In this document: positions 3-40,549 of the stretch, piece after piece
How positions within the stretch are numbered: the first letter of the stretch is position 1
How the letters are laid out: every line of letters begins with the position of its first letter
Assembly (NCBI GenBank): GCA_013152715.1
Contig: JAADFU010000179.1
Span: forward strand, 1 to 49,856
Reading direction: 5' to 3'
DNA from: Calditrichota bacterium
GTDB taxonomy: Bacteria > Zhuqueibacterota > Zhuqueibacteria > Thermofontimicrobiales > Thermofontimicrobiaceae
Length of the DNA: 49,856 bases
Notes under the pieces: model-generated
What the model saw: the letters and a program-made list of their open reading frames with translations, nothing else
The model's database searches: none
Told to the model about the DNA's origin: nothing
Position numbers and translations under genes: made by a program

Positions 3-3000
3 CTTAATTATCGCATGAGATTCATTCCCTCTTTTTCATTGGCAAGAGTTCGGGCAGAAGACGCATTTGCTATTGCCGCGGATATGGATGTGGTCATGGT
101 TGAATGGGACTTAATAGCACATGCTTCAGTGGCTACCAGTGTTCGCGCACTTAAAGCGGAACCGAGTTCGGTTTACTCGCCAAATACAGCCTGGGAAGCT
201 GGCTACAAAGGACGTGGAATAAATATCGGCATTTTGGATACGGGAGTGGACGACGGACATCCTTCTCTGGATGATATGGATGATGATCCCAGTACTAATG
301 ACCCCAAATTTGTCGCCGGATTTGACGCCACTGCCCGCCCGCGCGTGGCAACAAATCCGGATGATGATTACAAATATTACAAAAATGGATATTGGCATGA
401 AATATTCCACGGGACTCACGTCGCTGGCATTGCTCTGGGTACAGGCGGCTCTACTGACAGCGCTGGTGTTGCTCCGGAAGCAAAACTTATCGACGTAAAA
501 GTATTGGACTCAAACGGGCGTGGTCCAGCTTCAGATATCATTGCCGGAATTGAGTGGTGTATCGCCAACAAAAATACTGCCTGGCCCGGCCAGCAGCCGG
601 AAAATTATGGCATCGATGTGTTGAATATGAGTCTTGGCTTTGGCTATTCTTCCGACGGGCAAGATGCTGTGTCACGAGTTGTCAATAAGGCAGTTGCCGC
701 AGGATTAGTCGTTGTCTGTGCGGTTGGAAATGATAATTTGACAAATATGATCGCCAGCCCCGCTGCGGCGGACGGCGCAATTGCTGTGGGCTCGGTAAAT
801 GACATGGGAACAATTACCCGCACCGACGATATCATTTCTTCACATTCTAACTGGGGATCGAACCGAGGACCCAGATTGTCCGATGGCGATTCCGATCAAA
901 TGGACGAACTAAAACCTGACGTTACTGCTTACGGTTCAGGGATCATTTCCGCCAAAGGAATCGACCCCGGCCAGAATGGGACAGAATGGCATGAATTGAG
1001 CGGGACTTCCATGGCGACGCCTCACGTTGCTGGTGTTTGCGCGCTCATTCTGCAAGCCCATTCCCAGTTTTTGCCGCACGACGTCAAAAACGTGTTGCGC
1101 GTTTCGGCAGAGGACAAAAACGGCACATACAACTCAAGCCTGAGTACGAAGTACGATGTCGATTACGGCTGGGGAATCGTTGACGCCTACGAAGCAGTAA
1201 CGACAACTAATGTGCCACCTGATCTGTGGATTTCACGTAAACCTGTCTGGTGGAGTTCAAAAGATATCTGGTTGACAAATCCGCCGTTTGTCGGGCAAGC
1301 GAATACAATCTACGCGCGCATTCACAACACTTCAGGTACTGCTGCTAATGGAGTTACTGTTACTTTTAAAGCAGGAATTTTCGGAATAGGCCAACCCAAT
1401 TGGCTCTGGCAGCAGACCACAACAATTTCAGTTGCCGGGACAGGAACCGTGGTTGCTTCGGTTCCCTGGACGCCTACGGCGGCATTGCTGCAAAAAGGTC
1501 CGGGGCATACCTGCATTCGGGTAGAAATTAGCTACGCCCAAGACCCCAATACGCAAAATAATATCGCGCAAAAAAATCTCGATGTCATGCAGTCTACTAG
1601 CTCTAGCATGTTTACTTTCCGTGCCTGGAATCCTTTTGACGCACACAAAGAAGCATTTTTTGGCATGAACAGGGAAAATTTGCCCGAAGGATGGGGCGCG
1701 TATTTTGAGCCGGACACATTTTTTACGTTCAATTATGCCGATAGCGCCGATATTTTCGGAGAAATTTTCCCGGGACCTTATGCTTCAGTTTCTGACACTG
1801 GCGTTATTCAAATTGCTGAATTTTTCAAAGGAAGTATTGCTCCGGTCGGAGGAGTGACCATTTCCCTCGCGGTGCAAGCAGCTCCTGCAAAAATCGTTTT
1901 GCCTGACACGTTCGCCGCCTATCTGGACACTATTCTCATCCCGATCACTGTAACGACAGATTCGATGATTGGAGTAGCCCAATTCGTCATCGATTATGAC
2001 TCTACAGTTGTCGAATTTTTAGGCGCTGACATCGGATCGGACATCGCCGGCTTTACCCATGAGGTTCAAACAGAGCTTCCCTTTCCACCTTCTTCAATGC
2101 CGGAAACCAATAATAATTTTCTTGTCCAATTGAATGGCGGCGGGACGAATTTCTTCTCCGGCCAGAACCAGCAAGTCGCGCTATTGAGTTTTGTTGTCAT
2201 CGATTCCACGATTGACCACGGAACTCCGCTGATACTTGACACAGAAAACGGAAGATCTTTTTTGACAACGAGCCATCTTCATGACATTTTTGGGGATGAA
2301 ATGAGCATTTTCCCTGGCGGAATCATTGTGCGGCAATACAAATGGCCGCTCACCTTGAGAGATATTTTGGATTTAATCGACCCGGCGCGGCCAGTTAGCG
2401 GCGTTAAAGTAACAATCCTGGTCAACGATCAAACTTTCGTTGACACGACTGACAGCGAAGGTTTTGTCTATTTTTCTGAAATTCCGGCCGGCGATCTCGT
2501 CATCTCACAAACGAAAGAGGGCGATCTGCGTAGCGCAATTACCGGGACAGACGCACTTTTAACCTTGAGATATCTGGCATTCATGGAGAGTCTTGATGAC
2601 GGGCAAATGATTGCCGCTGACGTGAACAGAGACAGTAGGGTTACCGGGAGTGACGCTCTCGCCATTTTGCGTTACCTGGCATTTTTTAGCTCGGACATCG
2701 CCAGCACGGGCAGGTGGGATTTTATCGCAGCGACACCTCTGCCCATTCCTTATCCTTTTCAAGCGCCAACGCAATTAGATTATCATTCCTACCTGTTCGG
2801 AGATGCTAATTTGAGTTGGGGATTGCGACTGAATTCTCCCGCCTTGCTAAAAAATGCCAATGGCGAACTGCCACAAATTAATATTGGTGGCAACATGCCG
2901 GATATTCGGAACAACGAAATTGTCGTTCCGATAGCAATTCAGCCCATGAAATCTGAAGCCAATACGATCATTTTCACCCTGAATTTTGATCCGAGTTATT

Positions 3001-3563
3001 TCGTCTATCAAGCAACACAAACGACGGATTTAGCAGATGGTTTCATGATTGCTGCCAACGGCGAAGAAAAAGGCAAAGTTCACATTGCCATGGCCGGAGT
3101 GAGCGGAATAAACAACCAAGGCGAGTTTCTGAAAATTTCCTTCACTACTTTAGACAAAAAGTCTGGTTCAGAAACTAAAATGTGGTTATCCGACATCGCC
3201 ATTAATGATTTGAAAATTGAAAATCCGGTTCCGTTTCAGATTAATCTTGCTGAGAAAGGGACTGCCGCGCCGAATACTTTTGTGCTCGCACAAAATTACC
3301 CCAATCCATTCAACTCGGAAACGACAATCCGCTACGGTATCCCCAATAGCGTAGATAAAAAAATACAAGTGACGCTGAATATTTACAACACCAGCGGACA
3401 ATTAGTGCGCACTTTGGTAGACGAGAAAAAGGCTGCCGGGTATTATTCTGCGCGTTGGAATGGCAGGGACAATTGGGAAAAACCGGTGGCGACAGGAATT
3501 TATCTATTCCGGCTGCAAGTCGGGAAATTCAATGCGACGAAAAAAATTCTTATGCTCAAATAG
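3..3563 (+). CDS. Secreted subtilisin-like serine protease (S8) with cohesin, dockerin and T9SS sorting modules, 5'-truncated
   Basis: The reading frame is open to the left edge, so the protein is cut; the first ATG (position 15) lies inside what looks like the tail of an I9-type propeptide, so it is probably not the start. Numbering from that Met, the S8 triad is visible: Asp75 in ILDTG, His132 in HGTHVAG, Ser332 in GTSMATPHVAG, with oxyanion Asn239. After a CARDB-like linker comes a cohesin-like beta module (about 625-775), a carboxypeptidase-regulatory-like stretch (about 780-835), two dockerin-type repeats (about 836-890; the second, DVNRDSRVTGSDA, keeps calcium ligands, the first is degenerate), a second cohesin-like module (about 955-1075) and a type A T9SS sorting domain (QNYPNPFNSETTIRYG, to the C-terminus). 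Expected to be exported and anchored or released at the cell surface. The next gene shares its first cohesin module and sorting tail. Confidence 0.93.
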   Translation, partial: LNYRMRFIPSFSLARVRAEDAFAIAADMDVVMVEWDLIAHASVATSVRALKAEPSSVYSPNTAWEAGYKGRGINIGILDTGVDDGHPSLDDMDDDPSTNDPKFVAGFDATARPRVATNPDDDYKYYKNGYWHEIFHGTHVAGIALGTGGSTDSAGVAPEAKLIDVKVLDSNGRGPASDIIAGIEWCIANKNTAWPGQQPENYGIDVLNMSLGFGYSSDGQDAVSRVVNKAVAAGLVVVCAVGNDNLTNMIASPAAADGAIAVGSVNDMGTITRTDDIISSHSNWGSNRGPRLSDGDSDQMDELKPDVTAYGSGIISAKGIDPGQNGTEWHELSGTSMATPHVAGVCALILQAHSQFLPHDVKNVLRVSAEDKNGTYNSSLSTKYDVDYGWGIVDAYEAVTTTNVPPDLWISRKPVWWSSKDIWLTNPPFVGQANTIYARIHNTSGTAANGVTVTFKAGIFGIGQPNWLWQQTTTISVAGTGTVVASVPWTPTAALLQKGPGHTCIRVEISYAQDPNTQNNIAQKNLDVMQSTSSSMFTFRAWNPFDAHKEAFFGMNRENLPEGWGAYFEPDTFFTFNYADSADIFGEIFPGPYASVSDTGVIQIAEFFKGSIAPVGGVTISLAVQAAPAKIVLPDTFAAYLDTILIPITVTTDSMIGVAQFVIDYDSTVVEFLGADIGSDIAGFTHEVQTELPFPPSSMPETNNNFLVQLNGGGTNFFSGQNQQVALLSFVVIDSTIDHGTPLILDTENGRSFLTTSHLHDIFGDEMSIFPGGIIVRQYKWPLTLRDILDLIDPARPVSGVKVTILVNDQTFVDTTDSEGFVYFSEIPAGDLVISQTKEGDLRSAITGTDALLTLRYLAFMESLDDGQMIAADVNRDSRVTGSDALAILRYLAFFSSDIASTGRWDFIAATPLPIPYPFQAPTQLDYHSYLFGDANLSWGLRLNSPALLKNANGELPQINIGGNMPDIRNNEIVVPIAIQPMKSEANTIIFTLNFDPSYFVYQATQTTDLADGFMIAANGEEKGKVHIAMAGVSGINNQGEFLKISFTTLDKKSGSETKMWLSDIAINDLKIENPVPFQINLAEKGTAAPNTFVLAQNYPNPFNSETTIRYGIPNSVDKKIQVTLNIYNTSGQLVRTLVDEKKAAGYYSARWNGRDNWEKPVATGIYLFRLQVGKFNATKKILMLK

Positions 3564-3666: not shown

Positions 3667-4482
3667 ATGCTAAAATATAAATTCATCGCCGTCTTTTTCG
3701 CATTGATCGTTTTTTCCGGCGCAGTTAGGGGACAATATTTAGCCACGCTAAATTTGCCCGATACGACCGCGGCGCACAGCGACACTATCGACGTGGCAAT
3801 TAAAGTGTCCACAACATACGAAATCGGGCTGGCGCAATTCATCCTTGAATTTGACACTACAGTTGTTCGGTTCATCGATGCACACAGCGGCGCAGACGCG
3901 GCAAGTTTTGTGATGTCTAAAAATATGAATCTTCCTTTTGCACCGACGTCGAGTTCGGCTAACGGGAATTTTCTGCTTCAATTATCGGGCGGAGGTACGA
4001 GTACTTTCAGCGGACAGGACAAAGAAGTCGCCGTCACTACCTTCGTTGTAAAAAGCGCTTCCGGAACCACGCCATTGATTTTCGATCCGGCAGCGAATCA
4101 CACATTTCTGTCGACAACGACGCTGACAGACATCAGCGGCGGCGACATCAATTTTATCAATGGTAGCATTACCAGTATGTCGTCAGATGTAAAGAACCCT
4201 GAAAATTTCACCGCACCGAAAAATTTTCTTTTGCGACAGAACTACCCCAATCCATTCAATCCGACGACAACTATTCAGTTTGAGCTGCCGGCGCTTTCAT
4301 TCGTAAATCTGAAAATTTTTGACGCGATGGGCAGAGAAATCAGGACGTTACTGCGTGAGAAATTACCTGCCGGGCAGCACAGAATTGTGATCGATGCAGA
4401 AGACTTGCCATCCGGCGTGTATTTCTATCGACTGCAGGCGGCAGGCAAGAGTGCGACAAAAAAGCTCATTCTGCTGCGCTAA
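3667..4482 (+). CDS. Small secreted cohesin-domain protein with T9SS sorting tail
   Basis: 271 aa. A signal peptide (MLKYKFIAVFFALIVFSGAVRGQ) is followed by one cohesin-like module (about 25-160) and a C-terminal type A T9SS domain with QNYPNPFNPTTTIQFELP (about 185-271). The cohesin module is clearly related to the first one of the upstream protease (shared LPDT, GxAQFxxxxDxTVVxF, LPFxP, NFLxQLxGGGTxxFSGQ blocks), so the two genes probably arose by module duplication. The start is fixed by a near-perfect Shine-Dalgarno AAGGAGGT at 3653-3660. Cohesins bind dockerins; the neighbouring protease carries a dockerin, so an interaction between the two is plausible but not shown. Some families with this fold act only as generic surface adhesion modules. 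Confidence 0.88.
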   Translation: MLKYKFIAVFFALIVFSGAVRGQYLATLNLPDTTAAHSDTIDVAIKVSTTYEIGLAQFILEFDTTVVRFIDAHSGADAASFVMSKNMNLPFAPTSSSANGNFLLQLSGGGTSTFSGQDKEVAVTTFVVKSASGTTPLIFDPAANHTFLSTTTLTDISGGDINFINGSITSMSSDVKNPENFTAPKNFLLRQNYPNPFNPTTTIQFELPALSFVNLKIFDAMGREIRTLLREKLPAGQHRIVIDAEDLPSGVYFYRLQAAGKSATKKLILLR

Positions 4483-30488: not shown

Positions 30489-31142
30489 ATGGCGAAAAAT
30501 TGGCTTGATCTGATTGGTGCAGTTGACAAACGGTTATTTTTGCTGGCAGTTTCCCTGTTTTTCATCGGTTTCTTTCTCGCATCGCCCGTAGTGAAATTTT
30601 CAATCAAGTTTCTCATGGCATATCCGCTCTGGATGTGGGGGAAATTGGAGCAATTTCTGCGCAAAAAACCCTCTTTTTTTACGCTGGCAATTTTTATTTT
30701 TCTTTTCAACTCAATTTCTTCGTTCCTGAATATTTTGTCCGGTTTCGGCGTAGTTTTGCCGTTCATTTTTACATTCTGGCTGGGGTTGAATGTCGGGATC
30801 ATTGCCCGAAAAGAAGCCGGCGGAATGGCGATCGCAGTTACGCTTTTTTTGTCGCCTCACGCCTTTTTTGAATTGCCTGCCGTGTGGCTGAGTGCGACTG
30901 CCGGAATGCAATTAGCTCTGGCAGCCGCAAAAACAAAAGAAGCCGCAATAGCACAATATCATTATTCGCTGGATTTGTATTTTTTTGTGATTCTCATTTT
31001 ACTTTTGCTTGCCGCGTTCATCGAAGCGGGGATGATTTATTTGGTGACGAAAAAATCAAAGCATCCCGAATTTTTTTCGCAGGAACCATTCGACCGCGAG
31101 CAAGACGACAGCGATGATGAGAAAAATGAGTTGATGCCATAA
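30489..31142 (+). CDS. SpoIIM/DUF95-like polytopic membrane protein
   Basis: 217 aa with about five membrane segments. The block SPHAFFELPAVWLSATAGMQL (about 122-142) and the earlier LFNSISSFLNILSG...GLNVGII match the SpoIIM (stage II sporulation protein M/DUF95) family, whose members occur in non-sporulating bacteria next to VWA and MoxR-type genes. Its acidic C-terminus (EQDDSDDEKNELMP) overlaps the 3' end of the convergent VWA gene by 87 bp. No clear ribosome site is present. A VWA partner encoded opposite is consistent with known associations, but the link is inferred. Confidence 0.75.
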   Translation: MAKNWLDLIGAVDKRLFLLAVSLFFIGFFLASPVVKFSIKFLMAYPLWMWGKLEQFLRKKPSFFTLAIFIFLFNSISSFLNILSGFGVVLPFIFTFWLGLNVGIIARKEAGGMAIAVTLFLSPHAFFELPAVWLSATAGMQLALAAAKTKEAAIAQYHYSLDLYFFVILILLLLAAFIEAGMIYLVTKKSKHPEFFSQEPFDREQDDSDDEKNELMP

Positions 31143-33239
31143 TTGCCATTGACGCGAAACCCTGATTTCTCTTGTCTGAAAATTGAGTTTTTCTTTGAGC
31201 AAAGAAAGCGCCGAATCGGCAATAAATTCCCCGTGCGTTTTGAAAGCTAATTGTTGCAGCGCCGCTTGATTGATTTTCGTTTCCAAAAATTCCAGATTAA
31301 AATCTTCCACGGAAAATTGTCCCCTGTCCGTGCCGAGCTGGCGATTCTGAAAACTGGCGATCCCGCGATAGGAATAATCTCCGCCGGGCAGCGGCTCCAG
31401 CGACGCTTCGTACTTTCCCTCGCCAACCGGGTTTAATTGAACGGAAAATTCCCGCCCCAAACTGTCTCTCACCTGAACGCGAACGTCGGCGCCGTCCAGC
31501 GGGTCGTAATTTGGCGTGTAAATCTGCGCCGCAAAGGAAACAGCCTGTCCGCCGTGGAAAATTTCCTGCGTCGGATAGATGCGCACGATCTTGGTGTCCT
31601 CTTTGTTCACCAGCCAGCGAATGGAATTGTTCAGCAGTTGGCGAAACGCGCGATTGTCTTTCCCGATGCCCCACATGAGCAAATCCCAGCGCCAGACGCC
31701 GTAAGCGAGCAAAGCAAGAGATTTTTGCTGCCCTAATTTTTGTGTCAGCAACAGCGGGATTGGTTTGGTTCGACGATTAAGTTGAAAAATAGATTTCTTT
31801 TCTGCCGTCAGCAGCACAGATGCGCCCGGGTTAATTTTCGCTGAATTGAACGAATAATAAACCGGTGGCAATTCGTCCCAGATTTTTTGATTCTCAAATT
31901 CATTGTCCGCGATCTGGGTGACCGGATGAGTTTTTCCGGCTTCACTGAGCTTAACGAGCGTCGCCTGCTCCTTGCTGCGGTTCAGCGGCAATTTCATCGG
32001 TAAATACGGCGACAGCGAAGCCAGCATGAAATCGTTGATGCCGTTTCCCCAAATGAGCATCAGCGGAGTGGAAGCGTGTTTCAGAAATTGTTGGATTTGC
32101 GCCACAGCAGCAGTTTTGTATTTCCGCGGCGGAAAATTGTGCAGCACAAAAAGATCATATTTTTTCAATGAATCAGATGGCGGGAAAGATTTGTTCTGAT
32201 AAAACCCGGCGCCTTTTTTCGCAATGAAATAATCCACTTGAGTGTTCGGATCGGCTTGCAGCACGCGTTTGATGAAAGAAAAATCGGGATCAGGCCCCCC
32301 ACACAAGTACAAAATTTTCATTTTGCTTTTCAAAACTTTCACGTAAAAGGATTTGCTATTGTTGAGCTCAGTCAATTCATTTTTCAGCGCCGGCGTTTGC
32401 ACCACATATTTTCGCAACCCCTCTTTTTCAGGCGTGAAATAAAGCCGCAGCTTAGTCTCCGGCGGATTGCCGACGCGGATGGTTTTGCTGTCGATGAGTT
32501 TTTTGCCGTCGAAAAGATTGACTTTTATTTTTTGTCGATCAAAGCCGCGCGCGAAAATCGTCACGTCCGCCGGAACTCTATTTTTCACGTAGGTTACCTG
32601 GTTGGTTAAAATGTTGCTGACGACAATGTCTTTTTGCTCGGTTGGTTCTCCCACGGAGATGGGAAAAATGGGCAGTCCCAGGTCTTCGGCGATACGATTC
32701 GGATTCTCTCCTGAATTGAAAATGCCGTCGCTGAGCAGAATGAGCGCCTGCAAATTTTTGTCGACATATTGCTCGCTGATTTTTCTGATGGCTTCTGTCA
32801 AATTTGTCGCCTCGCCGGTGAATTGCAGCGAATCCAGTGTATCCGTGCCGAAGGGAGTCAAATTCACGGAAAAGCCAAAATAGTCGAACTGAATTTTTGA
32901 AGAATTTTCTCGAAAAAGCGGATCCCGCAGGATTTTTTTGGCGGCTTCACCACGTGACTCGGCATGGTCGCCGAGAGACATGCTCGCAGATTGATCCAGA
33001 AGCACGGCAACGACAGGCGCTTCTTTGCGGATGTAGGAAATATTGAGCAGCGGCTCGAAAATGAGAAATGCAATGAGCAACAGCGCCAGCGCCCGCAGGG
33101 AAGTCAAAAGAATGCGCAGCCAGCGCGGCGCCGGCGGATTGGTGCGGCGATACACGTAAATGCTGTAGCCAACGCTCAAAATGGCGAGCAAAATGAATAG
33201 AAATACTGATTCGGAAAATGTCAGACTAAAAGATTCCAT
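31056..33239 (-). CDS. VWA-domain / GATase-like membrane protein (BatA-like)
   Basis: 727 aa. Two N-terminal membrane helices (about 9-28 and 42-62) precede a VWA domain with an intact MIDAS motif DQSAS (82-86), GEATNLT as the threonine loop and LLSDG. A central beta-sandwich region (about 215-300) is followed by a GATase1-like fold starting KMKILYLCGGPDPDFSF, then a beta-rich region and a C-terminal membrane helix ending EWFLRKKFGML. This layout is common for large bacterial VWA envelope proteins. It is the last of four leftward genes, and its end overlaps the SpoIIM-like gene. Confidence 0.87.
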   Translation of the reverse strand: MESFSLTFSESVFLFILLAILSVGYSIYVYRRTNPPAPRWLRILLTSLRALALLLIAFLIFEPLLNISYIRKEAPVVAVLLDQSASMSLGDHAESRGEAAKKILRDPLFRENSSKIQFDYFGFSVNLTPFGTDTLDSLQFTGEATNLTEAIRKISEQYVDKNLQALILLSDGIFNSGENPNRIAEDLGLPIFPISVGEPTEQKDIVVSNILTNQVTYVKNRVPADVTIFARGFDRQKIKVNLFDGKKLIDSKTIRVGNPPETKLRLYFTPEKEGLRKYVVQTPALKNELTELNNSKSFYVKVLKSKMKILYLCGGPDPDFSFIKRVLQADPNTQVDYFIAKKGAGFYQNKSFPPSDSLKKYDLFVLHNFPPRKYKTAAVAQIQQFLKHASTPLMLIWGNGINDFMLASLSPYLPMKLPLNRSKEQATLVKLSEAGKTHPVTQIADNEFENQKIWDELPPVYYSFNSAKINPGASVLLTAEKKSIFQLNRRTKPIPLLLTQKLGQQKSLALLAYGVWRWDLLMWGIGKDNRAFRQLLNNSIRWLVNKEDTKIVRIYPTQEIFHGGQAVSFAAQIYTPNYDPLDGADVRVQVRDSLGREFSVQLNPVGEGKYEASLEPLPGGDYSYRGIASFQNRQLGTDRGQFSVEDFNLEFLETKINQAALQQLAFKTHGEFIADSALSLLKEKLNFQTREIRVSRQWQLWHQLIFLIIAVVLLAVEWFLRKKFGML

Positions 33240-33746: not shown

Positions 33747-35567
33747 TTATTTTTTTGCCAATGTTTTTCTCGTGATAATTCCGCCGACGATGAGCAACGC
33801 AACGTAAACAATGATGACTACTCCCCACGGCGGAATTTTTGCGTTTGACGGCGAGCTGACGTAGGGGCTGCCGATGAGCCGAAATCCCGCCCAAAAATAG
33901 GGATGGGCGCGGGAAATTTTCTGATCGAGAAAATCGAAAGTGTCGCGCATGGAAGCCAATTTTGCGCCGCGTAGCGCCACTGTATTGTGCTGCCGTTTGT
34001 ATTTTAATTCCCAATAAAATTTGGACATGAACTCGCTGGTGGAAATACTGTGCACGTGCCAGAGGCTGTACAGAACGGATTTGTTTCCGGCGAGCAAAAA
34101 AGCCTGCGGCAGCGCCACAATTCCGGGACGGGCGTTTTTGACAACTTTGGGGTAAAAAATTGTCGCACTCAACGTGACCATATCGGCGCGGAATGGGATT
34201 TGAAAAACATCGTTCACCGTGAGCCAGTAATCCTCATCTGCCGAGCCGTTTTGGCTTGCTGATATCATGAGTCCGGATTGCAACGGTTGTTTGTTATTCA
34301 GCAGCCCGAGTTGCGCGAGATAAATCCAGCGATAGTCCGCCGCGCGCTGTTTCAAATAGTCCATCGTCACTTCGTTGCCACGCACGTTGTCGTGGCGAAA
34401 CAAAAGCCGGGAAACGCGGCGAATTTCATCGTTCACGTACGGCGAATGATCGAGCCAGAGCAGCGGCGGCAACGCATTCCCCAGCGAATCATTTTCTACG
34501 GGAAAATCTGGCTCACTCATCGTCAGCAGTCGCCTTCCCAATTTTGTCTGATCGCGCATATTTTGCAGCTCCGGATCCAGCGCCGAAAGAGACAAATTGT
34601 AGCTTATGCTAAATTTTTTAATCAGAAATTTCATGAACCGATACTCTTTGTAAAGCACCTCTGTCTGCTTGGTGCTGTCCGCCGGTTGCGAAATGAGGCA
34701 CTCGAACGGCAGGTTCAAAAATGGCGAATCCGGAATGATTACGAGTCTGCTGCGTTCGAAAAGTTCTGCTTTGAGCGGCCGAATGAGCAGCCGATACAAA
34801 TAATAAGCGCTCTCAGCGTCAAATTTCAAATCCAGCACATCTTTTTGATCGAACAGCGTGGAGTCAAAAGCCTGAAGCGCGTCGGTAAATTGACCCGGCT
34901 CAATCTGCCAGCTCCGCACGCCGACCGAATCCGCGCTCACGAAAAACGCAGCGAGCGAGTCGTTGTGCAGCCAATAGTCCAGAATCAGCTCTCGTGAATT
35001 CAGATTTTGTTGCAACTGCCGCGCGGTGACCGGCTTTTGCCAAACGAGAAAATTGACCAGCAACGGGTCGATCTTTTTTGCCGAATCCACCGCGGCGGTG
35101 AAACTCCGCTGCGCTTTTTTTGTCAAATTATTGTATTCAACGGGCTGAAGCTCGGGCCCACGTTTGATCAAATCAAACCAGTCCGCGGCCAATTGATAAG
35201 TTTGCGCCAAAAAGTCGCGGTGTTTTTTCAGCCGCTGTTGGAAAAGATCGGTCTGGTAAAAAAGTTTGATCGTTCTGAAAGTTTTCAATTTCTCCAGATA
35301 ATTCAAACTTTTCTCTGAAAATGTCGCTCTTTGTGGGCGGTTGATCTCTGTTGCAAGTGCGCTGTTCAACTGCGAACAGATTGAGTCAAACTCTTTTGCG
35401 GACAAATGCGTTCCTGACCAGAGCCGTTGTTCAAATTTTTGCAGATTCGCATCCACGTCCGAATTTTGTTTGTTCGTGTTTGCAAATGCGGGAGCATGGC
35501 TGCAAAAAAAAGCGAAAAAAATGGCGGTGAGCACAATCGCCCCGCTATTTTTCGTTTCAGAAAACAA
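33747..35567 (-). CDS. Membrane-anchored CHAT-fold protein lacking the catalytic His and Cys
   Basis: 606 aa, TTG start with GAGGAAAA upstream. A signal peptide (about 1-29, HAPAFA) is followed by a helical region (about 40-170) and a CHAT-like domain (about 190-570): LVIIPDSPFLNLPFECL matches the usual IVPDGxLxxLPFEAL, and LPQAFLLAGNKSVLYSLWHV matches LxxAFLxAGAxxVVxSLWxV. The catalytic motifs are replaced: ATHG reads AQLG (Leu420 for His) and LSACET reads LSATIF (Thr469 for Cys). A C-terminal membrane helix (about 581-598) follows with a basic end. It appears to be an inactive, periplasm-facing pseudoprotease. An alternative is that the alignment around these motifs is shifted. Confidence 0.83.
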   Translation of the reverse strand: MFSETKNSGAIVLTAIFFAFFCSHAPAFANTNKQNSDVDANLQKFEQRLWSGTHLSAKEFDSICSQLNSALATEINRPQRATFSEKSLNYLEKLKTFRTIKLFYQTDLFQQRLKKHRDFLAQTYQLAADWFDLIKRGPELQPVEYNNLTKKAQRSFTAAVDSAKKIDPLLVNFLVWQKPVTARQLQQNLNSRELILDYWLHNDSLAAFFVSADSVGVRSWQIEPGQFTDALQAFDSTLFDQKDVLDLKFDAESAYYLYRLLIRPLKAELFERSRLVIIPDSPFLNLPFECLISQPADSTKQTEVLYKEYRFMKFLIKKFSISYNLSLSALDPELQNMRDQTKLGRRLLTMSEPDFPVENDSLGNALPPLLWLDHSPYVNDEIRRVSRLLFRHDNVRGNEVTMDYLKQRAADYRWIYLAQLGLLNNKQPLQSGLMISASQNGSADEDYWLTVNDVFQIPFRADMVTLSATIFYPKVVKNARPGIVALPQAFLLAGNKSVLYSLWHVHSISTSEFMSKFYWELKYKRQHNTVALRGAKLASMRDTFDFLDQKISRAHPYFWAGFRLIGSPYVSSPSNAKIPPWGVVIIVYVALLIVGGIITRKTLAKK

Positions 35568-35706: not shown

Positions 35707-38310
35707 TCAAAAATGAAAGTGAAAATAACCGCGGTAGATTTGCAAGTAATAGCAAAGATAATCCCAGAATCCGCTGTGAATTTGCAGGAAGTGAATCAGC
35801 GCGATGAGCGTCAATCCGGTGAGAATGAAAAAAATCGCAGCAACTTTGTAGCCCGGCATCATGAAAACGACGCGCAGCCCTCGGATGGCGCGAAAAATGT
35901 ACCACAAATCAAACGCCGCCAGCAGCGCAAAAAGACCAATTCGCAGATGAGAGAAAGCAAGCAGCCGATAGGCGATCATGCCCGCTGGTAGCAGAAAAAT
36001 GTAAATGTTTCCCACCCAAAACGAAAGCGCGATCATCCTGCCAAGTTTTGTTCGTTTTCGAAATAGGAAAGCCACAAGGCGAAAAGCAAACGCGAAGAGC
36101 AGAAAATAGAAAATCATGCCCACGGTAAGAATAACAAAAGAAATCTCGGGGCGCCAGATTTGCCTGACGACGACCTCTTTCATCGTCGGAGAGAAAAAAA
36201 TCAGCGTGAGCAGATGATCGACAATCGCGTTGGATTTGAAGAAAAAGCTGAACGACGAAAGAATCAATCCGTAGCTGGCAGACGAAAACAGGGCGATAAG
36301 CAGTGTGTGAGAAAGAGGTATTTTTCTGCCATCGCGGATGTCCGTGTAAAATCCGTGCGGGTGGACAAAGCTGCGCTTGAGATTGTCGCGAAAGTAGCGG
36401 CGATTGTGCGCCACGAACAGAAAAATCAAAATCAGTCCCAGTCCGGCGATGATGAAAAAATTGACCTGTCCGGTAAAAATTGTAATTCCCGGATTGTAAA
36501 CCGCGTCGCCGGTGGTGTACAAATCTTTGACTGTTTTGAAAGCGAAACGGCTCTGGTTGTTACTGTTGATCAAGCCAAAAGGCCGCAAATAGGCGTCAGA
36601 AAAATCGCCTGGCAGCGATGAGGCGTAATTTTTTTTAAAATCGAAGAGGGAGGTGATAAAACAGCCGTCAATTTCAGCGAAGGAGCGAATGGTCTGATAT
36701 GACTGCACGATTTGCGCGGACTGATATTTTTCGTACAAAACAGAATCCTGGTCGTTGTCGAAAAATTTGTATTTCGGCGCGCCAAAATCAGTCACGATGG
36801 TCGGCGCGTTGAGTCGTTGAGTGAGCCATTTTTGCAGCAAATTTTTTATGCTGTAAGGATTGTATCGAATCAGAGAAATTCCGGCAATTAATCCTGGCAA
36901 ATAGGGATTTTTCAATTGCGGCGGCAGCGCAGTGAAATAAAAATAGGGGTGATTCGGCTGGCTGAGAATGGGATAGATTTTTTCAATGAATGGCTGCGCT
37001 TCATCGTCTCCGCTCAAATATCCGCTGCTGACGCCCACTGCAAATAAAGATACGTGATTTGCATCGCGGTCCATGGCTTCTGTCAAATAATCGCGAATGC
37101 GCGTGATAAAAATTTCCGAAGAAAACAGTCGGCTGGGAACGGCTTTCAAGGGAATTTCTTCCAATAAAAACAAACCGAGACTGTCACAGAGCCCGACAAT
37201 TTGCGGATGAGGCGGAAAAAGCGGTACGCGCACCGCGTTGGCGTTGAGCCGTTTGACGGAAAGGAGTCGTTTCACGGCTTCGTCAAAATTGAAAATAATC
37301 CCGCTCTCGCCGTAATTTTCTGCCCAGTTAATGCCGCGCAGAAAATATTGTTGGCCATTGAGAAAAATGTTGCCATTAAAAAAATCCAACTGACGAAATC
37401 CGAGAGAAGTGTCAAATTCATCGATCACTTTCCTGCCATTGAAAAGTTTGACGGAAATGCGATAGCGGTTTGGCTTTTCCGGGCTCCACAGCCGGGGATT
37501 TTTGATGACGATTTTTTCTGTCAGCCGGGAAAATGCCAGGTCTTCGTCAGCCGAAAATTTACCGAACTGGCGTTTAATGCGCGCTCCTGAAAGCGGGTCG
37601 AAAATTTCGATGAAATAGCTGAGTGAAGGCGAGCGTTTCTGCTCAATGGGCGAAAAAACGAGACGTTGTTGCCAGTCTTTGACGTCCAGAGAAATGTTGA
37701 GGGTGCATTCGGAAAAATCGGTGTTGAGCGAATATTCGATGTCTGTCGAGAGAGAGCGTCGCGGCAGCGCCAACAAATAAATTTCGCGAATGATTCCGCC
37801 GTCGTAGCGCAAACCGTCGAATTGATACTTGAGCGGTAGCGTGTTTTTGTTGTTCAGACGGGTGTCGACTTTGATTTCTATTAGATTTTTTCTCCCGACA
37901 GAAATGAAATTTTCAGGGATGTCGATGTAAAATGACGTGTAGCTTCCGGCGTGGCTACCGATAAATTTATTATTGACAAAAATTTCGCAGTAGTTGTTGA
38001 TGCCGTAACACACGAGCCGAAAATGACAGTTGGCCAGAGCGCTGTCAACGGAAAAAGATCGCCGAAAAAATATTTCCGTTTGCTGCGCACAGGCGCCGGG
38101 AATGTGCGTTTTGTGCCAGACATTTTCGTCCTGCCGCCGCGAGTCCCACTCTCCGTTGAGCAGAATGGCCGGGCGAAATTGATTGCTTTTTTGCCAGATC
38201 AAATTTCGTCGTGCCGCCAAACTGGAATCGACAGGGATCTGAGCAGACAATTTGAACGAGGCAATCAGGACAATAATCAGAAGGATAAATATTTGCGATA
38301 TTTTTTTCAT
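35707..38310 (-). CDS. GH2-fold protein without catalytic Glu residues, fused to a polytopic membrane domain
   Basis: 867 aa from the ATG at 38310, which begins a signal peptide (MKKISQIFILLIIVLIASFKLSAQ); a TTG 13 codons upstream is possible. Residues ~50-185 are a GH2 sugar-binding-like domain (LNGEWDSR, FFRRSF, GSYTSFYIDI), ~190-310 the Ig-like domain, and ~315-600 the TIM barrel (FLRGINWAENYG, LNANAVRVPLFPPHP). The acid/base Asn-Glu pair after RDxNHxS reads Ser-Gly (Glu to Gly at about 430) and the nucleophile TEYG reads TDFG (Asp at about 508). The last ~250 residues hold about six membrane segments. Most likely a periplasmic pseudoenzyme or sugar sensor joined to a membrane domain. Confidence 0.82.
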   Translation of the reverse strand: MKKISQIFILLIIVLIASFKLSAQIPVDSSLAARRNLIWQKSNQFRPAILLNGEWDSRRQDENVWHKTHIPGACAQQTEIFFRRSFSVDSALANCHFRLVCYGINNYCEIFVNNKFIGSHAGSYTSFYIDIPENFISVGRKNLIEIKVDTRLNNKNTLPLKYQFDGLRYDGGIIREIYLLALPRRSLSTDIEYSLNTDFSECTLNISLDVKDWQQRLVFSPIEQKRSPSLSYFIEIFDPLSGARIKRQFGKFSADEDLAFSRLTEKIVIKNPRLWSPEKPNRYRISVKLFNGRKVIDEFDTSLGFRQLDFFNGNIFLNGQQYFLRGINWAENYGESGIIFNFDEAVKRLLSVKRLNANAVRVPLFPPHPQIVGLCDSLGLFLLEEIPLKAVPSRLFSSEIFITRIRDYLTEAMDRDANHVSLFAVGVSSGYLSGDDEAQPFIEKIYPILSQPNHPYFYFTALPPQLKNPYLPGLIAGISLIRYNPYSIKNLLQKWLTQRLNAPTIVTDFGAPKYKFFDNDQDSVLYEKYQSAQIVQSYQTIRSFAEIDGCFITSLFDFKKNYASSLPGDFSDAYLRPFGLINSNNQSRFAFKTVKDLYTTGDAVYNPGITIFTGQVNFFIIAGLGLILIFLFVAHNRRYFRDNLKRSFVHPHGFYTDIRDGRKIPLSHTLLIALFSSASYGLILSSFSFFFKSNAIVDHLLTLIFFSPTMKEVVVRQIWRPEISFVILTVGMIFYFLLFAFAFRLVAFLFRKRTKLGRMIALSFWVGNIYIFLLPAGMIAYRLLAFSHLRIGLFALLAAFDLWYIFRAIRGLRVVFMMPGYKVAAIFFILTGLTLIALIHFLQIHSGFWDYLCYYLQIYRGYFHFHF

Positions 38311-38479: not shown

Positions 38480-38587
38480 TTTACTTTTTCCTAAATTATG
38501 ATTATAATTTAAAACCTGAAAATTTGGACAATCAGGCATAATAAAACGCAATTGCTCCGGATTGAGCACAGAAAAAACGAGGTACGC

Positions 38588-40549
38588 ATGCGCTGGAATT
38601 TGAAATTTTGGCTTTTTGTTTCTTCGCTGTTTTTACTCTTTTTTTCAATTAACGGTTTTGCAACTACAAATTCTTCTTTCAAAATTGAACATCCGAGAAT
38701 TATTTTGTCCGATGTTCCGTTCGAGATGACGGTCTCTGCCCTCAAAGGCAACGGGCAAATTGATACGTCATTTTCCGGAATGGCCGAGGCGGAAGGCCTT
38801 TTTCAAAAAATTTTCAAAGAAAAAAAGCAATTGACAAAAATAGGCCCGTTCAAGAACGGAGTTTTGCATCTTCGCGATGTAATTTTGCCGGGTTCCGCAA
38901 CGGTCAGTTTCTCAGCAGCAGATGGCGAAATCAATCTTTCGGAGAAAATCACTGTCATGCCCGGATATTTGAGTTTGCTGCCACCGTTGCTGGCAATCAT
39001 TCTTGCGCTGGCGCTGCGGGAAGTTTTGCTGGCGCTGTTCAGTGGCATCTGGCTGGGAGCCATGTTTCTCTGGGGATACAATCCGTTCATCGGTTTGATG
39101 CGCGCTTTAGACACTTACATGGTCAATTCCTTGTTCGACAAAAGCCACATCGCTATTGTAATGTTCAGCATGACGCTGGGCGGTATGGTCGGCGTGATTT
39201 CTCGATCCGGAGGTACGCAGGGGATTGTGGAAAAAATTTCCCGCTGGGCGCACCATCCGCGAAACGGACAAATCGCCACCTGGCTGCTGGGTGTAATCAT
39301 TTTTTTCGATGATTACGCGAACACATTGATTGTGGGAAACACGATGCGGCCTCTGACGGACAAAATTGGCATTTCCCGAGAGAAACTCTCCTACATCGTC
39401 GATTCCACAGCGGCGCCAGTGGCTTCCATTGCGATAATTTCTTCCTGGGTGGGATTTCAGGTGGGTTTGATTGATCAGGCGTTCAATAATATCAACGTGC
39501 CGCACGATGCGTACATTACTTTTCTCAGATCAATTCCTTTTGCCAGTTACAGCGTGCTGGCGATCATTTTCGTTTTTCTGATCGGATTCACGCTGCGGGA
39601 TTTCGGTCCCATGTACAAAGCCGAACATCGTTCATTTTTGACAGGAAAAGTCCTGCGCGACGGAGCGCAGCCCATTGCGGACGACAAATCTCTGGACATC
39701 ATGCCCGAAGAAGGAATTCCCCTGCGCTGGTACAATGCCGCGATTCCGATTTTGATTGTCATTTTCGGGACGATGATAGGCCTGTACTATAGCGGCAGAG
39801 TGGCTCTCGGCGATCAGGCAGGAACTGCTCGTCTGGGAGAAATTATCGGCAATGCGGATTCGTTCAGCGTTTTGATGTGGTCATCGTTTTCCGGCGCGTT
39901 TGTGGCGATTTTTTTGGCAGTAACGCAGCGAATTTTGTCCATGAAAAAAGCACTGGACGCCTGGCTCAACGGTGTGAGAGCCATGGTTATCGCCATGATC
40001 ATTTTAATTCTGGCGTGGACCATCGGCGAGATTTGCGGCGAGCTAAAAACTGCTGATTACGTCATCGCCGTGACGCGGGATTTGATTTCGCCGCATGTTT
40101 TGCCCATGCTTACTTTTATCGTGGCAGCGTTCATCGGATTTTCCACCGGCACATCCTGGGCCACGATGGCAATTCTCGTGCCCATTGTCGTTCCCATGGC
40201 GTTTAAGTTAACTGTGGAGGCACAACTGAGTGCTTCACTTTCGAATTCGATTTTGTTGGGCACAATTGGCGCCGTTTTGTCCGGCTCGGTTTTCGGAGAT
40301 CATTGCTCGCCGATTTCAGACACGACGATCATGTCTTCCATGACCTCGGCGGCGGACCACATCGATCACGTGCGTACGCAATTGCCCTATGCCGTCGCTG
40401 TGGGGCTTGTGGCAATTTTTGTCGGTTATCTTCCCGCCGGATTTGGTTTCCCGAGCGGACTGTCAATTCTCGCGGGAGTTTTGGTCTTTTTGATCATTTT
40501 ATTTACGCTGGGCAAAAGAATCGACAGCCGCGATGAAATGCTGAATTGA
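38588..40549 (+). CDS. NhaC-family Na+/H+ antiporter with N-terminal exported domain
   Basis: 653 aa from the ATG with GAGGT upstream; a TTG 12 codons earlier adds only a charged leader. Unlike standard NhaC proteins, it begins with a signal peptide (about 1-27, FSINGFA) and a ~100-residue beta-rich, Ig-like region (about 30-125) ahead of the transporter. The transporter core (about 130-640) has about 12 membrane segments with IIFFDDYANTLIVG, SSWVGFQVGLI, FSTGTSWATMAILVP and SVFGDHCSPISDTTIMSS, all typical of NhaC. It should exchange Na+ for H+ at the inner membrane. Confidence 0.9.
   Translation: MRWNLKFWLFVSSLFLLFFSINGFATTNSSFKIEHPRIILSDVPFEMTVSALKGNGQIDTSFSGMAEAEGLFQKIFKEKKQLTKIGPFKNGVLHLRDVILPGSATVSFSAADGEINLSEKITVMPGYLSLLPPLLAIILALALREVLLALFSGIWLGAMFLWGYNPFIGLMRALDTYMVNSLFDKSHIAIVMFSMTLGGMVGVISRSGGTQGIVEKISRWAHHPRNGQIATWLLGVIIFFDDYANTLIVGNTMRPLTDKIGISREKLSYIVDSTAAPVASIAIISSWVGFQVGLIDQAFNNINVPHDAYITFLRSIPFASYSVLAIIFVFLIGFTLRDFGPMYKAEHRSFLTGKVLRDGAQPIADDKSLDIMPEEGIPLRWYNAAIPILIVIFGTMIGLYYSGRVALGDQAGTARLGEIIGNADSFSVLMWSSFSGAFVAIFLAVTQRILSMKKALDAWLNGVRAMVIAMIILILAWTIGEICGELKTADYVIAVTRDLISPHVLPMLTFIVAAFIGFSTGTSWATMAILVPIVVPMAFKLTVEAQLSASLSNSILLGTIGAVLSGSVFGDHCSPISDTTIMSSMTSAADHIDHVRTQLPYAVAVGLVAIFVGYLPAGFGFPSGLSILAGVLVFLIILFTLGKRIDSRDEMLN

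Follow-up and report, generated by a model that had tools for sequence, protein, structure and literature searches.

What can a protein do that has the layout of a family 2 glycoside hydrolase (GH2), has lost the residues with which such enzymes cut sugars, and ends in a polytopic membrane domain? The question is raised by a gene on a 49,856-nucleotide contig of a Calditrichota bacterium (JAADFU010000179.1, assembly GCA_013152715.1), the whole of which was analysed and is called the window here. The original prediction, made from the sequence of the window, had seen in it a periplasmic sugar-binding or sensing protein carried on an inner-membrane domain rather than a hydrolase. The gene, the domains of its product and two neighbouring genes are listed in Table 1.

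Table 1. Position of the fusion gene, of the features of its product and of two neighbouring genes in the window.
Feature	Position	Strand	Details
CHAT-domain protein, next gene downstream	33747..35567	-	PF12770 E 8.2e-39; signal peptide, C-terminal membrane segment
Pseudo-GH2/six-TM fusion protein, CDS	35707..38310	-	867 aa; 867 codons plus stop
Six-segment membrane domain, divergent Yip1-like (predicted)	35725..36477	-	residues 612-862; hydropathy, charge, PF04893
GH2 TIM-barrel domain, catalytic residues lost	36517..37377	-	residues 312-598; PF02836 Glyco_hydro_2_C, E 1.3e-12; hhalign to GusA
Nucleophile site D508 (GusA E504)	36787..36789	-	hhalign to GusA
Acid/base site S429-G430 (GusA N412-E413)	37021..37026	-	hhalign to GusA
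GH2 Ig-like middle domain	37393..37761	-	residues 184-306; PF00703 Glyco_hydro_2 match 254-306, E 1.3e-10
GH2 N-terminal jelly-roll domain	37762..38172	-	residues 47-183; PF02837 Glyco_hydro_2_N, E 1.8e-11
Signal peptide	38242..38310	-	residues 1-23, MKKISQIFILLIIVLIASFKLSA; hydrophobicity
NhaC-superfamily Na+/H+ antiporter, divergent upstream neighbour	38552..40549	+	PF03553 E 3e-61

The Pfam domains PF02837, PF00703 and PF02836 follow one another in order, each over its gathering score, and together with the alignment to GusA described below they bear out the three-domain GH2 layout that had been proposed. The best NCBIfam models were GH2 enzymes too, matched far under their cut-offs (best 110 versus 1221 bits). 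Translation from the ATG at 38310 yields a good signal peptide, an alternative TTG start being possible 13 codons further 5' (38349), and a hydrophobic N-terminal stretch is present in 43 of 46 homologues. The closest genome record is that of candidate division KSB1 bacterium 4484_87 (70% identity over the full length), and a peptide-pattern scan of the genome collection returned the same-genus relative, NATN01000095.1, as its sole match.

Whether such a protein could still cleave a glycosidic bond was examined with a family profile of 46 full-length homologues, 20-69% identical. Aligned with E. coli GusA by hhalign (columns 44-600; 99.9%, E 4.4e-33), it placed S429 opposite N412, G430 opposite E413 and D508 opposite E504, and alignments with LacZ and with an intact GH2 encoded in the same genome (G000:C38) gave identical catalytic positions. 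The Ser-Gly in place of the acid/base Asn-Glu and the Asp in place of the nucleophile Glu were thus read correctly from the single gene, as was the RDxNHxS context, which is kept as R415-D-A-N-H-V-S421. Among the 46 members the acid/base column holds G in 21, D in nine, N in six, L in three, P and Y in two each and E, S and A once each; the nucleophile column is S in 13, I in eight, R in six, D, V and Q in four each, L and E in two each, and M, T and K once each. No full-length homologue (0/46) has both catalytic Glu residues in the family alignment. An alignment-free motif test led to the same result: both catalytic motifs were found in none of 56 members (0/47 and 0/9). Of 24 ordinary GH2s, a set drawn mostly from the members' own genomes and including GusA and LacZ, 18 had both, and five of the others have the NE motif in a looser form not caught by the pattern. 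NE motif matches in two members (L022, L043) are located away from the catalytic site and were rejected as catalytic. One protein first counted as a member (L053, from G121) keeps both catalytic motifs, lacks the membrane domain and was set aside as an ordinary GH2. Judged by these residues, the fusion protein is not a normal GH2 hydrolase.

Loss of catalytic residues is also what a decaying pseudogene of an ordinary GH2 would display, a reading refuted by conservation and hardly credible: dozens of genomes, at 20-40% identity, have open frames of 813-981 aa, the fusion to the membrane domain is constant, and ten columns of the family are invariant. Since both the architecture and the residue losses recur in 46 full-length homologues, they are beyond chance. 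A search with a membrane-domain profile for the same fusion in related genomes, which had been proposed as a check, recovered it in 52 of the 82 phylum genomes (KSB1 lineage), with one gene per genome, divided only where contigs or frames are broken. Across 388 genomes there were 65 matches, namely these 52, 11 strong ones outside the phylum (11/306) and two marginal ones (G285 and G297, E ~1e-4) that were excluded, that of G285 being a 679-aa membrane protein without a GH2 part. Complete frames include the GH2 part, and in the nine extra-phylum loci that were read the catalytic pair is absent as well. In a tree of the GH2 part, which is unrooted and has long branches, a single branch with an SH-aLRT support of 100 divides 55 membrane-fused rows from 24 ordinary ones, so that the fusion family likely has a single origin. 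The 30 phylum genomes without a match, some of them incomplete, indicate that the gene is dispensable in some lineages. By its sequences this is a whole pseudoenzyme family rather than one odd gene, and as the losses and the topology described below hold throughout it, the case is stronger than could be known when the prediction was made. A literature search, with subscription papers outside its scope, yielded no report of a GH2-membrane fusion and nothing on Yip1 combined with a glycoside hydrolase.

The C-terminal part had been described as about six membrane segments; hydropathy predicts six (approximately residues 612-635, 666-690, 723-747, 758-783, 790-806 and 822-844), and the 46 homologues share this architecture. 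The family-mean net charge is +4.8, +1.8 and +2.8 in loops 1, 3 and 5 and about zero in loops 2 and 4 and the tail, which by the charge rule places the GH2 body in the periplasm and the C-terminus also outside. R662, P721, W765 and R807 are invariant in the membrane domain. In the window protein PF04893 (Yip1) matches residues 646-839 (E 3.2e-5, 24.3 bits against a gathering score of 28.6), and five of the segments predicted by hydropathy lie within 646-844, a stretch that takes in this match. The same model is matched by 20 of the 46 members at E up to 0.1 (best E 2.8e-8) and is the only Pfam family to match this domain in more than two of them. A PDB sequence search with the membrane domain as query gave no match up to E 1, and AlphaFold2, given the window protein and one relative (L033), returned low pLDDT values of 35.5 for the full length and 47.1 for the membrane domain alone. 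From these matches the membrane domain is tentatively classed as a divergent Yip1-like domain, below threshold in the window protein.

Does the old active site nevertheless hold a sugar? We compared the family columns equivalent to 14 GusA active-site residues with the barrel as a whole. In the fusion family, whose divergence leaves some of these columns uncertainly aligned, they averaged 1.34 bits against 1.54 for the barrel, and random sets of barrel columns were as low in 22% of draws. In ordinary GH2s of the same lineages they reached 4.15 bits against 2.33, a value attained by none of 10,000 random sets; as the method detects active-site constraint there, such constraint appears to be absent in the fusion family. 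The columns that hold the sugar in GH2 enzymes, among them (GusA numbering) the two His residues H296 and H330, Y468, Y472, W549, N566 and K568, are lost or variable. The most conserved parts of the family are instead the membrane domain (1.91 bits) and the jelly roll (1.84 bits); the share of columns above 2 bits is 36% in the jelly roll and the same in the membrane domain. The original prediction therefore stands in two of its parts, a non-hydrolase by sequence and a periplasmic GH2 body on a polytopic inner-membrane domain; its third part, sugar binding or sensing, is not supported by the columns of the old pocket.

A glycan receptor could nonetheless be imagined: a sugar of the periplasm or cell surface would be bound by the barrel or jelly roll, and the membrane domain would relay the signal inward. 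The GH2 N-terminal domain is named for sugar binding and is well conserved here, and invariant Arg residues lie on the predicted cytoplasmic side; glycan binding may take place elsewhere than in the barrel, for example via this more conserved jelly roll. It is also possible that a ligand is specific to the window's own clade, the conservation figures being those of the whole family. As conservation is lacking at the sugar-contact columns of the barrel and no kinase, cyclase or DNA-binding signalling domain is fused to the protein, we regard a sensor as unlikely. The conserved polar residues might alternatively mark an enzyme whose barrel or membrane domain has acquired a new catalytic site, for instance for the modification of lipids or glycans: D557 of the barrel is invariant, as are R662 and R807 of the membrane domain, and R588 and E385 are nearly so. 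However, D557 and R361 correspond to D553 and R327 of intact GusA, such residues are therefore probably structural, and the barrel has no second acid or His as conserved as D557 and E385. The membrane domain, moreover, consistently matches Yip1 only, with neither an enzyme family nor a solved structure among its matches, and we consider a new catalytic site improbable.

Gene neighbourhoods were counted at 39 fusion loci with flanks. In 18 of them, one of which lies outside the phylum (G082), the immediate 5' neighbour is an NhaC-superfamily gene, and two distantly related NhaC types share this place: a long type, present in the window and 53-89% identical between loci, and a short one of the TIGR00931 type, which occurs in three genomes from the family of the window itself and, across a gap of 1.8 kb, in G068. 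Short and long types are 27-29% identical over about 100-140 aa. The window antiporter has an extra N-terminal domain, which is probably periplasmic. As a separate observation, the window type matches Tet(35)-like antiporters at 172 bits, far under the cut-off of 750. The loci that illustrate the two types are the window and L055, L056, L057 and L084. In G010 the NhaC and fusion genes are codirectional, so their adjacency survived an inversion; the two types in one place and this codirectional case hint at a functional tie. One form of such a tie, analogous to the pseudo-GH13 protein 4F2hc, would make the fusion protein an ancillary, heavy-chain-like subunit of the neighbouring antiporter, an idea to which the recurrence of NhaC, the exchange of its type and the G010 inversion lend some weight. 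About half of the loci have no NhaC gene nearby, however, and the fusion-bearing families f10 and f11 are among several without a close long-type NhaC; the mostly divergent orientation could mean no more than a shared promoter region, and inherited adjacency makes the loci non-independent. We consider an antiporter subunit in this strict sense quite unlikely.

On the other side of the fusion gene, the immediate downstream same-strand gene is smc in 17 of the 39 loci, and in 21 smc lies within two genes; it is usually followed by a GWxTD-domain gene. The order fusion gene-smc-GWxTD is conserved across classes and in extra-phylum genomes. Loci that have it are L064, L070, L071, L075, L076, L081, L082, L084-L086, L088, L089, L092, L126 and L130. 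In the window genome smc is located elsewhere (G000:C127), with the CHAT gene downstream of the fusion gene instead. The smc-GWxTD pair is intact in many genomes that lack the fusion gene or have moved it, that of the window included, and no replacement gene was found upstream of the pair in these genomes. As smc and GWxTD stay paired without it, the linkage was rejected as an explanation of function and is read as conserved gene order. In G071, which has no fusion gene, NhaC directly adjoins smc, which fits loss of the fusion gene from that place. The same literature search gave no report on GWxTD function.

The CHAT gene lies downstream of the fusion gene in five loci of the window's taxonomic order (the window and orthologues in L054, L056, L058 and L059). 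These CHAT proteins have lost the catalytic His in five of five cases and the Cys in four of five, their His motif reading LAQLG, LAQIG, LAAPA, LTLPA and LALPA and their Cys position T, T, C, S and S; six canonical CHATs of related genomes, aligned over the site, mostly read HLATH and LSAC. Other CHAT proteins of the same genomes keep both His and Cys. The gaps between the fusion and CHAT genes (142 bases in the window, -1 in G009 and 19 in G011) fit an operon, and we infer that the two are co-transcribed. As the CHAT protein has a signal-like stretch at its N-terminus and a membrane segment at its C-terminus, the pair in this order seems to encode two inactive enzymes at the outer face of the inner membrane.

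Further genes of the window were observed. The product of 31056-33239 (-) is 727 aa long, has membrane segments at its N- and C-terminal ends and matches VWA weakly; it also occurs close to the fusion gene in G001 and G005. At the far end, a single protein (15-3563, +) is a subtilase that also has a dockerin, a cohesin domain and a match to a sorting tail, and the protein after it (3667-4482, +) is a small cohesin protein whose tail is of that kind too.

Taken together, we favour, at about even chances, a conserved inner-membrane pseudoenzyme that serves as a non-catalytic periplasmic scaffold or ancillary subunit rather than as a glycan sensor. A GH2 glycosidase would, probably early and only once, have lost the two catalytic carboxylates together with the residues that hold the sugar, and it would have been joined to a Yip1-like membrane domain of six helices. 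Its inactive three-domain body could act as a folded binding platform in the periplasm; the membrane domain, whose cytoplasmic loops are conserved and rich in arginine, would anchor it and tie it to the membrane and cytoplasm. We infer that it acts as a scaffold, an adaptor or an ancillary subunit by making contacts with proteins or the envelope, and not by cutting sugars or recognizing them in the old pocket; it looks like a cell-envelope protein, conserved across many distantly related uncultured bacteria, that derives from a repurposed enzyme. More speculatively, and as a doubtful extension, the family might be a hitherto undescribed one, inactivated long ago, that supplies the periplasmic heavy subunit of a complex in the envelope. 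Its partner would be an NhaC-type antiporter in many lineages, and in the window's taxonomic order it would be joined by the CHAT pseudoprotease anchored in the membrane, so that two pseudoenzymes would make up a bacterial version of the 4F2hc principle. The GH2 domain matches would prompt a beta-galactosidase-like annotation and so distort enzyme counts of uncultured bacteria, and the reuse of an enzyme fold as envelope architecture can be tested in this family.

Compared with GusA and LacZ, the fusion protein shares the three-domain core over residues 44-600 and keeps the RDxNHxS context and structural residues, but both catalytic Glu and the sugar-contact residues are gone, six membrane segments have been added, and the gene is single-copy in each genome. 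Its residues 646-839 match most of the Yip1 model (PF04893), beyond which it has one more membrane segment, the first, and a large enzyme-like domain in the periplasm. To our knowledge, glycosidase-fold pseudoenzymes of known role are mostly animal proteins; here the fold would belong to a single-copy bacterial family that extends beyond its own phylum and is conserved mainly outside the old active site. Klotho is a GH1-fold co-receptor, and 4F2hc and rBAT are GH13-fold heavy chains of transporters. Like the fusion protein, as judged from its sequence and charge, these are membrane-anchored extracytoplasmic glycosidase folds without the full set of catalytic residues. They are used for protein contacts, as the fusion protein, whose gene adjoins one for NhaC at 18 of 39 loci, may be. 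They differ in being animal proteins of other GH folds with a single membrane helix; the likeness would be one of kind, not of descent.
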